Shown: positions 876 to 4,834 of the stretch, piece after piece
Layout of the letters: every line of letters starts with the position of its first letter
Numbering within the stretch: position 1 is the first letter of the stretch
Source of the DNA: Actinomycetes bacterium
GTDB taxonomy: Bacteria; Actinomycetota; Acidimicrobiia; Acidimicrobiales; RAAP-2
NCBI GenBank assembly: GCA_021846325.1
Contig: JAJZBX010000008.1
Coordinates: forward strand, 1 to 64,000
Direction of reading: 5' to 3'
DNA: 64,000 nt
Translations under genes and position numbers: made by a program
The notes under the pieces: generated by a model
Database searches by the model: none
What the model was told of the DNA's origin: nothing
What the model saw: the letters and a program-made list of their open reading frames with translations, nothing else

Positions 876-975
876 TCAGTCGATCTCACAACGTTGCCAT
901 GTTGGACAACTCAAGGGGCAGCCCGCCACTGTAAACATGAAGCTCGACTAAACGATTAGATCGTGAAATTCGTCT

Positions 976-981
976 TACTAT
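976..981 (+). promoter_or_regulatory. Candidate -10 box of the ECF sigma operon
   Basis: TACTAT lies 39 nt before the sigma start and fits the TANNNT pattern used elsewhere in the window. No convincing -35 is seen. A GGAG-type SD lies about 11 nt before the ATG. Confidence 0.3.
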
Positions 982-1020: not shown

Positions 1021-1509
1021 ATGGACTTTGACACCTACTACGCGGCGAGTTACGACCGCGTTCGTCGAGCCATGACTCTTACGTTCCACGATCACGAACT
1101 CGCTGAGGAGATCACTCAAGAGGCGTTCTTCCAAACACTACGAAAGTGGAAGAAGATTTCGCTGCTCGCCCACCCCGAAGGGTGGACGATGGTCGTGGCC
1201 CTGAACAAGGGACGCGACCTCCACCGCCGCCGTACCCGGCAAGAGGCCAAACAGTCACTCCTCGTTTTGCCGTCATCGAATCCATCAGGCGAGGCGCGCG
1301 TCGATGCTCGATTACGAGTCGCCGAACTGCTCGAGTGCCTCAGTGATCGCCAGCGTGAAGCGTTGCTCCTACGCTACGTCACTCAGCTGACAATCTCCGA
1401 GATTGCCAAGGCAATGGGATGTGCCGAAGGTACCGTCAAGGCCACTCTGCACGCCGCCATCGCCAAAGCGTCGCTCGTTGCGAAGGACACCACAAATGTC
1501 ATCGACTGA
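1021..1509 (+). CDS. ECF-type RNA polymerase sigma factor
   Basis: The 162-residue protein has the two-domain layout of extracytoplasmic-function sigma factors: region 2 (about residues 5-65; HDHELAEEITQEAFFQTLRKW) and region 4 (about 100-155; LSDRQREALLLRYVTQLTI then the helix-turn-helix ISEIAKAMGCAEGTVKATL). It would direct RNA polymerase to a small regulon. Its 3' end overlaps the next gene by 14 nt, so the two are translationally coupled, as sigma/anti-sigma pairs often are. The ECF subgroup cannot be assigned by eye. Confidence 0.9.
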   Translation: MDFDTYYAASYDRVRRAMTLTFHDHELAEEITQEAFFQTLRKWKKISLLAHPEGWTMVVALNKGRDLHRRRTRQEAKQSLLVLPSSNPSGEARVDARLRVAELLECLSDRQREALLLRYVTQLTISEIAKAMGCAEGTVKATLHAAIAKASLVAKDTTNVID

Positions 1510-3001
1510 CCAGATCCAAGATCTTTTCGACAGTGCCCTGTCAGCGCTGCCCTCCGGCGCGACCCCCTCGACTCAGTCGTTGTATCGCCGCCTTCGCCAG
1601 CGGCACATTCGAACTCGTCTTTCGACGATAGGCGTCAGCCTTGTCGCGATCGCGGTAGCGGCTACTTCAGTGTTCATCGGCGTGGCCTCTAATCCCGCCT
1701 ACGCCGTGACGCTCTACCCAAACACTTTCGGATCGGCCAGTGCGGCACAACTCATGGCAGATCAGAGCGTGATGACCGCGCGGCTTCACGCTGTGGGTTT
1801 CATGAATGCCGACGTCAAGGTCTCGAACGGAGGCCTGGTCGTCACCAACGGACCCAAGGGGCTGGCCAGCCCAACGTCGTTCCTCACCTCGTCGCCCGAG
1901 CTGCTAATCCGGTCCGTGATTTGCTACGCCGGGCGACAGAGTGGTCCGGTCTCGACCAGTCCATTGCCGACGACCTGCTCGAGCCCGCGGTATGCCGCAC
2001 CCACTGTCTCGGGGTCCGCGATACCGATCACCGAGCCAGACCCGGCCCTCGCGGCGTACGCGACGACAACCCCCGCACAGGATGCCAAGTTGCCCACCGC
2101 CACGGCCCTACTTCCGCTGCTGAACGCCGGTAACCGTGCCACCCGGCGCTACCTAGTCAGTCCGACGCTCGTCACGCTGTCGTCGAAGGTGGCTTCGGCC
2201 ACCGTGAGTCATGTACCTAGCTCCGGTGGATGGATTGTCGACGTTCATCTCAATGAGGCAGAGTCCCAAGAGTGGGACCACGTAGCTAAGCGATACTTCC
2301 ACCGTCAACTCGCCGTGGACTTAAAAGGTGTAATTGTCGAAGCACCCATCATTCAACCGGCCAACTCCACGTTCAGTTCCTTTGATGGTCAGATGCAATT
2401 GCTCGCGGTGACGGAGACTGATGCCTACGACCTGGCGGCCGCACTCACTTCGGGACCGCTCGCCGTGCCTCTCGTCGCCCGCTCGTCGGGTTCCAGGGCA
2501 TCCGAATCAATTTCTACGCCGACGTCCTCGCCGGTATGCCAAGCATCCGACATCACTCTGCAGGTTGGAGCAACCTACAAGGGCGGCAGTAGTTACCCAG
2601 CTGGAACTCTCCTCACTTCGCTGACCTTCACAAATCACGGACCTACTTGTCATCTGCCGTTGGGAGGGCCAGACGTCCGAGCCGTACGCGGGACTTACAA
2701 CGGTGGCGCCACCAGAGTCAGTCAGCTGTCAATACCTGTCCCCTCCACAAGCAAGAGACTGAAGTTCAACAGCGGCGCCCAACTCCCCGCTCTCGTTGAA
2801 GTGCGCGGCCTGCCGAGCGCAATGCTCAACTCCAAGACTTGCTCTCCCCACACGGCAGTTGGATTCGTCGTCGAAGGCTACGGCGAACCGCTCTCCACAT
2901 CTCACTATTTCGTACGGAGTCTTGCGAATGTCTGCTTCTATTCGAGCTCTGGCGGAATTGTTACAGATTTCGGCATTGTGTGGATAGGCGGCAGCTCATA
3001 G
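1496..3001 (+). CDS. Membrane-anchored protein with SecD-P1-like and DUF4232-like ectodomain, partner of the ECF sigma factor
   Basis: 501 residues from ATG 1496, preceded by AAGGA and overlapping the sigma gene. Residues 1-41 are cytoplasmic and basic at the end, 43-62 form one membrane helix, the rest is outside. Residues 70-145 follow the SecD P1 base pattern (MTARLHAVGF, then ELLIRSVI). Residues 235-326 resemble the P1 head (GWIVDVHLNE, VEAPIIQP, DAYDLAAALTSGPLAVPL). Residues 348-500 with paired cysteines (LTFTNHGPTCHLPLGG) look like DUF4232. No SecD multi-helix membrane part is present. The position suggests an anti-sigma or signal-sensing role, but no zinc anti-sigma motif is visible, so that role is inference. 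Confidence 0.75.
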   Translation: MSSTDQIQDLFDSALSALPSGATPSTQSLYRRLRQRHIRTRLSTIGVSLVAIAVAATSVFIGVASNPAYAVTLYPNTFGSASAAQLMADQSVMTARLHAVGFMNADVKVSNGGLVVTNGPKGLASPTSFLTSSPELLIRSVICYAGRQSGPVSTSPLPTTCSSPRYAAPTVSGSAIPITEPDPALAAYATTTPAQDAKLPTATALLPLLNAGNRATRRYLVSPTLVTLSSKVASATVSHVPSSGGWIVDVHLNEAESQEWDHVAKRYFHRQLAVDLKGVIVEAPIIQPANSTFSSFDGQMQLLAVTETDAYDLAAALTSGPLAVPLVARSSGSRASESISTPTSSPVCQASDITLQVGATYKGGSSYPAGTLLTSLTFTNHGPTCHLPLGGPDVRAVRGTYNGGATRVSQLSIPVPSTSKRLKFNSGAQLPALVEVRGLPSAMLNSKTCSPHTAVGFVVEGYGEPLSTSHYFVRSLANVCFYSSSGGIVTDFGIVWIGGSS

Positions 3002-3278: not shown

Positions 3279-3608
3279 ATGAGACTGCCCATCGAAACCG
3301 CCACCGTGAAGTTTGCGGCCGCTGGACCCGCTGAACCGGTCCTCGACTACGAGACCCGGACGCCGAAGTTGGACGAGAACGGCGTCGTGCCGATTGGTCA
3401 GATCAAATTTGACCGGGCCTTGACGATTAATGAGGCAGCGGACGTATTGGGGGTGAGTTACGCGACGGCCCGCCGTCTCTTGCTGGAGGGGAAGATCCCA
3501 CACCAACGGGTGTCACCGCGCCGAATCGTCGTGAGAGAGAGTGCGCTCATGACGTACCTCGAAGTGATCACCCGGAATATTTCTGAAGTCCAAGGTTTGT
3601 CAAACTGA
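3279..3608 (+). CDS. Excisionase-like helix-turn-helix protein of an integrative element
   Basis: 109 residues from ATG 3279, chosen because a strong SD (GAGGAG, 3268-3273) lies 5 nt before it. The C-terminal half is a MerR/excisionase-type DNA-binding fold (INEAADVLGVSYATARRLL, then GKIPHQRV and IVVRESALMTYLE). Residues 1-45 form a separate segment with the phrase YETRTPKLDENG that recalls small proteins of actinobacterial integrative elements (from memory, not checked). It lies just before the integrase, the usual xis-int order, and probably binds the att region to favour excision or represses its own operon. Confidence 0.75.
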   Translation: MRLPIETATVKFAAAGPAEPVLDYETRTPKLDENGVVPIGQIKFDRALTINEAADVLGVSYATARRLLLEGKIPHQRVSPRRIVVRESALMTYLEVITRNISEVQGLSN

Positions 3609-3670
3609 AGCGACGTTTGAGACGAACCGCACGACCGTTGGGAGCGGTACCAATTCGGGTGCCATTTAGT

Positions 3671-3688
3671 GAAGGAGAGGACGAGATC
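3671..3688 (+). promoter_or_regulatory. Strong Shine-Dalgarno facing an ATC codon in the integrase frame
   Basis: GAAGGAGAGG (3671-3680) is the best SD in this region and sits 5 nt before ATC at 3686, in the integrase frame. No ATG, GTG or TTG is near. Starting there gives ATRRQQSRSPGQGS, the kind of N-terminus usual in this integrase family, so ATC may be the real start. Confidence 0.45.
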
Positions 3689-4834
3689 GCCACTCGACGT
3701 CAGCAGTCTCGCTCGCCAGGACAGGGTTCGGTCATGAAGATCGACGGCCGCAAAGGCTGGCGCGGCCAGATCTCCCTGCCGGGCGGCAAGCGTTTAAGCA
3801 AGCAGTTCGCGACGAAGAAGGCGGCCGAAGAATGGGTTGTCGAGCAGCTGCAGCTCCTTCGTACCGGACGGCTCGCCACCAAGAAGTCCATGACGCTCGA
3901 CGAGTGGATGACGCGCTGGACCGAACTTCGTGTTCGCTCTTACTCCACCAAGGAGATCGAGCGCATTCACTACCAGCGATACTTCTCGACACTGTCCAAG
4001 GTCTCCATCGACAAGCTCACCCCGATGGTTCTGCGTCACTTCTTCGAGTCCCTGGAATCGAGGTTCAAGGTGGAGAATCCTCCTCATGGACGGCCCCATA
4101 CGGTTCGCCTCTGTCACTCGTTGATGCGCACGTCGCTCGGCGACGCGGTGGAGGCTGGCGTGCTTGGTGTGAATCTCATGCTGGCGGTCAAGCGTCCGAG
4201 GATCCCTAAGGCCGAACCGAAGTATCTAACGATCGAAGAAGTGAGGAGACTGGTGGACGCGGCGGATGCTTCTGGCGACGTTGGTGGTATCGCCGTTCAC
4301 CTGATGCTGCGCTTGGGACTTCGCCGAGGCGAGGCCCTCGGACTTTTGTGGAAGAACATCAACTTCTCGACCGGAGAGATCTCGGTCGAGCAGCAGCTGC
4401 AACGCATCGCCAATCCCGAGAATCCTGAGGTCACGCATTTGGGCCGAGTCGTGCTGAAGACTCAGGGCTCGGTTCGCACTCTCATCGCCGACCCGTCGCT
4501 TCTGGCCAAACTCGAGGGTCTTCGCGAACAGGCGTTCTCCGCCGCAGAACCGGACGACTTCGTGATCGCCCAGATCGACGGTTCGCCGATCGATCCATCG
4601 AACTACACGAAGTGGCTGTCCAAACTGGGTAGGTCGGTCGGTGTTCATGTTTCACCCCACCGACTGCGCCACACTGCGGCAACATTGATGCTCAACCAAT
4701 CGATACCGCTCTCGACGATCGGCGCGGTTCTGGGTCACACCGACGTGCGAACCACACTGATCTATGCCCGTGTGACAAGGGACACCAAGACGGCGGCGAT
4801 TAGCGCGCTGGGGGAGTTCCTCGACGCTCTCTAG
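3686..4834 (+). CDS. Tyrosine recombinase / phage-type integrase
   Basis: Site-specific recombinase that would insert and excise an element at the neighbouring tRNA-Ala. Order: N-terminal arm-binding part (GWRGQISLPGGKRLSKQF), SAM-like core-binding domain (MTLDEWMTRWTEL onward), catalytic domain with the first Arg in LGLRRGEALGL, HRLRHTAATLML for the His-x-x-Arg box, and LGHTDVRTTLIYARV carrying the Tyr nucleophile. All catalytic residues are present, so it looks intact. The start is uncertain: ATC 3686 has the good SD; TTG 3617 and GTG 3659 have none; ATG 3734 (MKIDGRKGW) is the shortest option. The gene points toward the 3' end of tRNA-Ala, 219 nt away. Confidence 0.9.
   Translation: MATRRQQSRSPGQGSVMKIDGRKGWRGQISLPGGKRLSKQFATKKAAEEWVVEQLQLLRTGRLATKKSMTLDEWMTRWTELRVRSYSTKEIERIHYQRYFSTLSKVSIDKLTPMVLRHFFESLESRFKVENPPHGRPHTVRLCHSLMRTSLGDAVEAGVLGVNLMLAVKRPRIPKAEPKYLTIEEVRRLVDAADASGDVGGIAVHLMLRLGLRRGEALGLLWKNINFSTGEISVEQQLQRIANPENPEVTHLGRVVLKTQGSVRTLIADPSLLAKLEGLREQAFSAAEPDDFVIAQIDGSPIDPSNYTKWLSKLGRSVGVHVSPHRLRHTAATLMLNQSIPLSTIGAVLGHTDVRTTLIYARVTRDTKTAAISALGEFLDAL

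Follow-up and report, generated by a model that had tools for sequence, protein, structure and literature searches.

An ECF sigma factor paired with a one-helix membrane protein that carries a SecD P1-homologous ectodomain

Bacteria use ECF systems as a main signalling route, and to our knowledge the signals sensed by most of their membrane partners are unknown. The locus described here raises the question of what a domain of SecD, a subunit of the SecDF translocase, is doing on the outer side of a membrane protein encoded together with an ECF sigma factor. It lies in a stretch of 64,000 nucleotides from an uncultured bacterium of the order Acidimicrobiales, referred to as the window; all its features are on the forward strand.

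The first gene of the pair (1021..1509) encodes an ECF sigma factor of 162 aa with regions 2 and 4. It matches Sigma70_r4_2 (E 1.5e-14) and Sigma70_r2 (E 1.4e-05) in Pfam and passes the ECF superfamily model TIGR02937 (66.7 bits, cut-off 42.9), without reaching the SigE-fam_strep subfamily model TIGR02983 (102.7 bits, cut-off 141.55). We call this sigma factor type A. As the sequence-only reading had stated, with correct coordinates, its gene overlaps that of a one-helix membrane protein. The overlap is 14 nt, the second gene (1496..3001, with the ATG at 1496 and the stop at 3001) encodes 501 aa, and the single transmembrane helix, assigned by hydropathy, comprises residues 45-63 (1628..1684). 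It is preceded by a cytoplasmic tail (residues 1-44, 1496..1627) and followed by a SecD P1-homologous ectodomain with base and head (residues 66-329, 1691..2482) and a C-terminal four-cysteine domain (residues 348-501, 2537..2998). The genes that directly follow the pair (window 3279-4834) encode an HTH protein of the excisionase type (TIGR01764, E 6.5e-10) and a tyrosine integrase (PF00589, E 4.2e-26), so that the pair may lie at the border of an integrative element.

The only Pfam match of the membrane protein is to the SecDF P1 head (PF22599, residues 215-324, 2138-2467; E 5.7e-11, 42.7 bits, cut-off 27). The SecD model TIGR01129 aligns over residues 59-329, covering base and head (E 4.4e-10), and its alignment ends where the channel helices would start. 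In a profile-profile comparison of nine P1 segments with ten SecDs, one from the window genome and nine from outside its family, the match again spanned base and head (P1 columns 6-263 against SecD 44-269), with a probability of 98.9 and an E-value of 2.9e-17. Judged by these matches, which are far above chance, homology to SecD P1 extends over residues 59-329 and takes in both base and head, but no channel helices. The base-and-head pattern previously recognized by eye is thus borne out by HMM-HMM comparison.

Structural evidence is weaker. As a single sequence, the membrane protein found no PDB chain at E <= 1, and the nine-sequence P1 profile retrieved 4 of 177,635 PDB sequences at E <= 10, all of them SecD or SecDF (best 3aqo, E 0.001). 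AlphaFold2 models built on shallow alignments had a mean pLDDT of 37.9 for ten orthologs, three of them represented only by P1-bearing parts or by proteins ending after P1, and of 40.8 for nine P1 segments; a search of viral contigs for relatives to deepen the alignment found none. With the P1-segment model as query, Foldseek placed SecDF chains at PDB ranks 1-9 and a holo-translocon chain at rank 10. SecDF thus heads the list, but at poor pLDDT, with a TM-score of about 0.26 and without a PDB match at E <= 0.001. We regard this result as weak and not independent of sequence and, since both predictions are poor, rest the P1 fold assignment on sequence.

Although it contains a SecD domain, the membrane protein is not a SecD. 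It fails TIGR01129 as a full-length equivalog (39.3 bits, cut-off 244.4) and has one hydrophobic helix instead of a channel, whose absence had already been noted. The GLDLxGG motif, invariant in the ten SecDs aligned, is missing, by eye, from the corresponding stretch before P1, and the gene is not in a secD operon context. The genome has a separate, true SecD of 500 aa, which scores above the SecD cut-off and is encoded on another contig with a YajC-like ORF (named by eye) upstream; besides the membrane protein itself, it is the best own-genome match (33% over residues 70-331).

Within the genus, 10 of 99 genomes encode the membrane protein (E <= 1e-40), each with an ECF gene directly upstream. 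Nine of these loci carry the type-A sigma, the eight others being 73-88% identical to that of the window, and the tenth (G092) carries an unrelated ECF sigma, 27% identical to it. A sample of 395 genomes of the class yielded matches at E <= 1e-31 only in the own genome and in G090. Nine loci were found in a pattern-based scan of the genome collection, all in Acidimicrobiaceae or Acidimicrobiales draft genomes, several of which have names that refer to bog, fen or palsa samples. Among the 13 loci compared, no neighbouring gene family is common to more than two, and the unit is thus a two-gene cassette.

Outside the genus, we considered six detached P1-head proteins, short frames chosen from search listings (one covering 172 genomes at E <= 1e-38), a procedure that weaker relatives would escape. 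One of the six is ECF-linked and five have no ECF gene in the visible stretch, which for one of the proteins (L047) is a 4.6-kb contig. In another genus, at L200, an ECF gene (Sigma70_r2 1.1e-12, r4_2 1.1e-13) ends 2 nt before a gene whose one-helix product has a tail of its own in addition to a P1 head (PF22599, E 1.9e-11), and this is a separate ECF and P1-head pair. The proposed linkage of the P1 protein with ECF genes stands for all ten genus loci and for L200, but is not seen, within the visible stretches, for five of the six detached homologues outside the genus; one of the refuting conditions set in the sequence-only reading, homologues without ECF linkage, is thereby partly fulfilled.

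Further insight comes from natural exchanges of parts between cassettes, which the sequence-only reading had not foreseen, as it had not foreseen the origin near the SecDs of the own family and the promoter, both discussed below. The sigma and upstream block of G092 belong to a second type (type B), as does most of its cytoplasmic tail, the first 50 residues of which are identical to the type-B tail of L124 at 36 of 50 positions. The G092 tail is not altogether different from that of the window protein, with identity at 15 of 41 aligned positions (score 31). The ectodomain (residues 66-331) is 78% identical to that of the window protein (206/265). By eye, the stretch beside the helix looks type A, which places the junction inside the tail.

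A different exchange is seen in G111, G147 and G162:C91, where a type-A sigma (67-72% identity) and an A tail (21-28 of 44 residues) are combined with a BNR-like ectodomain. Two of these ectodomains (L121 and L123; L122 is 93% identical to L121) were scanned with Pfam and gave matches of BNR type with E-values as low as 9.6e-06, none of which reaches its cut-off. They have no clear likeness to the window ectodomain; in one of three comparisons, L121 scored 4.5, with a shuffle mean of -31 and a largest shuffle of 36.5. G162 has a second copy of the type-A sigma and hence two type-A pairs in one genome (L123 and L137), one with P1 and one with the BNR-like part, both behind an exact upstream site; cross-regulation between them is possible.

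The C-terminal part varies as well. In G129 and G090, tail, helix and P1 are kept, and in place of the cysteine domain there are about 440 residues of a different cysteine-bearing repeat; apart from P1, Pfam matches nothing in these proteins. Those of G148 and G101 stop after P1, and G101 encodes a stand-alone cysteine-domain protein just upstream of the sigma. The P1 partners at L041:622-2958 and L042:6286-8622 run on into a cysteine-bearing repeat of about 440 residues (SCxSxxxCxAxG) without Pfam match, possibly a propeller.

For type B, we inspected 13 of 15 further loci (at least 59% identity), three of which are near-duplicates of one another; two fragments at contig edges and more distant loci were left out, as were eight places that resemble the type-A sigma at 31-38%. 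These thirteen ECF cassettes (L124-L136) have one tail type and varied ectodomains. Two of the 13 partners (L129, L136) have a cysteine-domain-like ectodomain, which scored 21.0 and 12.7 bits against the domain profile, compared to at most 8.9 bits in 400 shuffles, and in which Pfam detected no DUF4232. The three type-B partners scanned with Pfam (L124, L129, L136) gave no convincing match.

Taken over all 26 pairs inspected, not all of them independent, the tail type matches the sigma type without exception (A 12/12, B 14/14), while ectodomains are common to both sigma types. We consider this the strongest evidence that the tail, a putative sigma-binding region, faces the sigma and that the outer part is an exchangeable module. 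By these comparisons, sigma and tail behave as a fixed core and the outer part as an exchangeable cartridge, and P1, as such an outside module, is placed as expected of a sensor. That a P1 ectodomain forms the outer part of a sigma pair, as first suggested from the window alone, is supported by homology, linkage and swaps; binding and control of the sigma, as well as the signal, are inferred. The swaps also amount to ready-made chimaeras that mark functional borders, with upstream site, sigma and tail as one unit and the ectodomain as another.

How could such a tail act? It is arginine-rich, has no Pfam family match at E <= 1 over residues 1-44 and contains two predicted helices (residues 3-16 and 26-35), taken from the low-confidence model with a mean pLDDT of 37.9. 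Class I anti-sigma features, namely a recognized family and a cytoplasmic domain of about 100 aa, are not met by its 44 residues. In its one helix and a cytoplasmic tail shorter than 50 aa, the protein resembles class II (CnrY-type) pairs, and in the CnrY system, too, the genes are adjacent and overlap. According to PMC7406223, the mean ASDI length is 101 aa, domains shorter than 50 aa are set apart as possible class II, and CnrY consists of two helices, which embrace the sigma (PMC4598750). CnrY is associated with a separate sensor, CnrX (PMC4598750), whereas the outer part of the window protein is fused to it and is a SecD P1 domain.

We therefore think it probable, though well short of certain, that the locus is an autoregulated two-gene ECF cassette in which the membrane protein is an anti-sigma of the CnrY kind, with a short tail and with a SecD P1 domain that has been reused as its sensor. 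The 44-residue tail, most likely a short two-helix anti-sigma region that would work like class II CnrY given its length, would hold the sigma at the membrane. P1, having come from a SecD of the own or a near family with base and head kept and the channel lost, would bind a ligand, which may be of the same class as the substrates of SecD P1, a peptide or an unfolded protein. Ligand binding would then lead to a conformational change or cleavage that frees the sigma, and the freed sigma would transcribe its own operon. That the membrane protein is an anti-sigma has not been demonstrated, and the ligand and the release step are likewise inferred.

The last step of this proposal concerns a site upstream of the pair. 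An ECF-type promoter-like sequence, TAAACGA-N15-CGTCTTA, lies at 949..977, 43 nt before the sigma start codon. Its AAC...CGTC core has what we take to be a known layout of ECF promoters. The site is found at the same place before each of the 12 type-A sigma genes, among them the three whose partners are BNR-like, and is conserved within mostly unlike upstream DNA; one of these sites (L066) has a single mismatch (TAAACGG). The copy at 949..977 is the only exact one in the window and in its genome. Every exact copy in ten further type-A genomes precedes a type-A sigma gene, with one copy for each pair (twice in G162), and the G101 site has one mismatch; other one-mismatch sites are at G111:C10, G147:C20 and G162:C165. 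All genomes in this search are incomplete drafts. With up to three mismatches, the own genome has 60 sites compared to 49 in the control, which is no clear enrichment and reveals no regulon beyond the own operon. In G092, where the sigma is of the other type, no sequence comes closer to the type-A site than two mismatches; this genome carries the conserved type-B upstream block, which is promoter-like without its promoter role having been shown. Because the site is conserved before type-A sigmas and exact copies occur nowhere else, we predict that the type-A cassette is autoregulated from 949..977 and predict no other target; actual use of the site is inferred.

The same observation can be read differently. 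Since the only exact site in each genome precedes such an operon, the membrane protein is itself a predicted target, and it could mainly be the output of the cassette, a surface protein whose P1 and cysteine domains act outside by holding or binding polypeptides, without controlling the sigma. The substrate-binding pocket of the SecD P1 head (PMC11470409) would suit such a role. The tail, however, is needless for an effector acting outside, yet it follows the sigma type through all changes of ectodomain, and for this reason we hold the output role to be unlikely.

The partner could also be a positive co-factor, which brings the sigma to the membrane or activates it there, and not an anti-sigma; the sequence does not fix the sign of control, and the tail matches no Pfam family. 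Characterized one-helix ECF partners are mostly anti-sigmas. Further, anti-sigmas are often co-encoded with their ECF (PMC7406223), and the length of the tail fits class II; inhibition, although inferred, is thus preferred, and activation appears quite improbable.

Both genes are under purifying selection, with dN/dS values of 0.18-0.23 for P1 (five orthologs) and 0.11-0.16 for the sigma (four orthologs). On its dN/dS, which also supports the annotation of the P1 ectodomain, a decayed SecD remnant was rejected. A decayed or passive SecD fragment hitchhiking beside an ECF gene, as the patchy distribution and the integrase gene next door might suggest, is hardly credible given this constraint, the pair staying together without a shared neighbourhood, the separate case in another genus and the retention of P1 through changes of tail and C-terminal part.

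In a tree of P1 heads (77 rows), all 16 detached domains fall inside the branch of their own family's SecDs (support 100/99), in two places. The first holds the ten genus cassettes (100/100) together with L046, which is a secreted form found in another genus (98/98); the nesting of this group among the SecDs has moderate support (80-93 bootstrap). The second is a set from genera g15 and g21 (94/89) that includes L200. The tree does not include ten SecD hits below 60 bits, the duplicate locus L036 or identical segments. Sampling of the other families of the class is thin; since L187, the only SecD known from another family of the same class, is their sole representative, a near family remains possible as the source.

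In AU tests, a single origin of all detached P1 domains (16 rows) was rejected (p 0.005), whereas one of the 11 ECF-linked rows alone was not (p 0.123). The tests thus support more than one detachment, with a single origin of the ECF-linked forms remaining possible. Within the second set, the P1 protein of L199 is divergent from a short GntR regulator (Pfam GntR, E 1.2e-14) and that of L047 from a partial GntR gene, 87% identical to that of L199; L198 and L201 have no such regulator in view. As an intact GntR gene is missing next to the tree row L142 (= L198), two of the three rows labelled GntR are truly GntR-linked. At L047:3561-4649 and L199:5026-6260, the short GntR regulator is divergent from a one-helix protein with a LLFKEARQRRRRRW-type tail and a P1 head, which makes up a second kind of two-gene arrangement, and at L062:1-647 a GntR ORF 61% identical to that of L199 lies beside a similar tail.

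What P1 might sense can only be approached through its relatives. The SecD P1 head has a substrate-binding pocket (PMC11470409), so that a peptide or an unfolded protein may reasonably be guessed as the signal, although no result shows this; the reuse of a substrate-binding domain of known biophysics at least renders the ligand hypothesis testable. The ectodomain of the anti-sigma RsiV is unrelated to that of the window protein. Functionally there is a parallel, RsiV being an anti-sigma that binds lysozyme (PMC4183432) and thus having a protein-binding outer part. VemP monitors SecDF function and involves the SecD P1 head, but is a translation-arrest peptide and not a sigma pair (PMC11470409). 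Judged by titles, none of the papers matched in a literature search that did not cover the large ECF classification papers is on a SecD-like P1 domain in a sigma factor pair. The swapping of the outer part among relatives suggests an exchangeable sensor, and proteins on the outer side of the membrane may be what it reports on. It is a tentative and rather doubtful extension of this view that the sensor reports secretion status: P1 would sample secretory or misfolded polypeptides outside, the sigma-binding tail would turn export load into transcription, and the arrangement would have arisen more than once in the own family, with cartridge-like exchange between sigma cores.

The C-terminal domain had been described as a DUF4232-like cysteine domain. 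Its four cysteines are present, whereas the likeness to DUF4232 is weak: residues 348-501 match PF14016 at E 0.058 and 14.0 bits, under the cut-off of 27. Relatives of the domain occur as stand-alone proteins (blastp E 1e-13 to 1e-32), among them L048:4209-4793 in the own genome (C47), L043:6272-6892 and L044:1843-2472, and a profile of type-A sigmas detected no ECF gene in the available stretches around these three. The cysteines and an N-x-G motif of the domain are conserved in an alignment of 12 rows.
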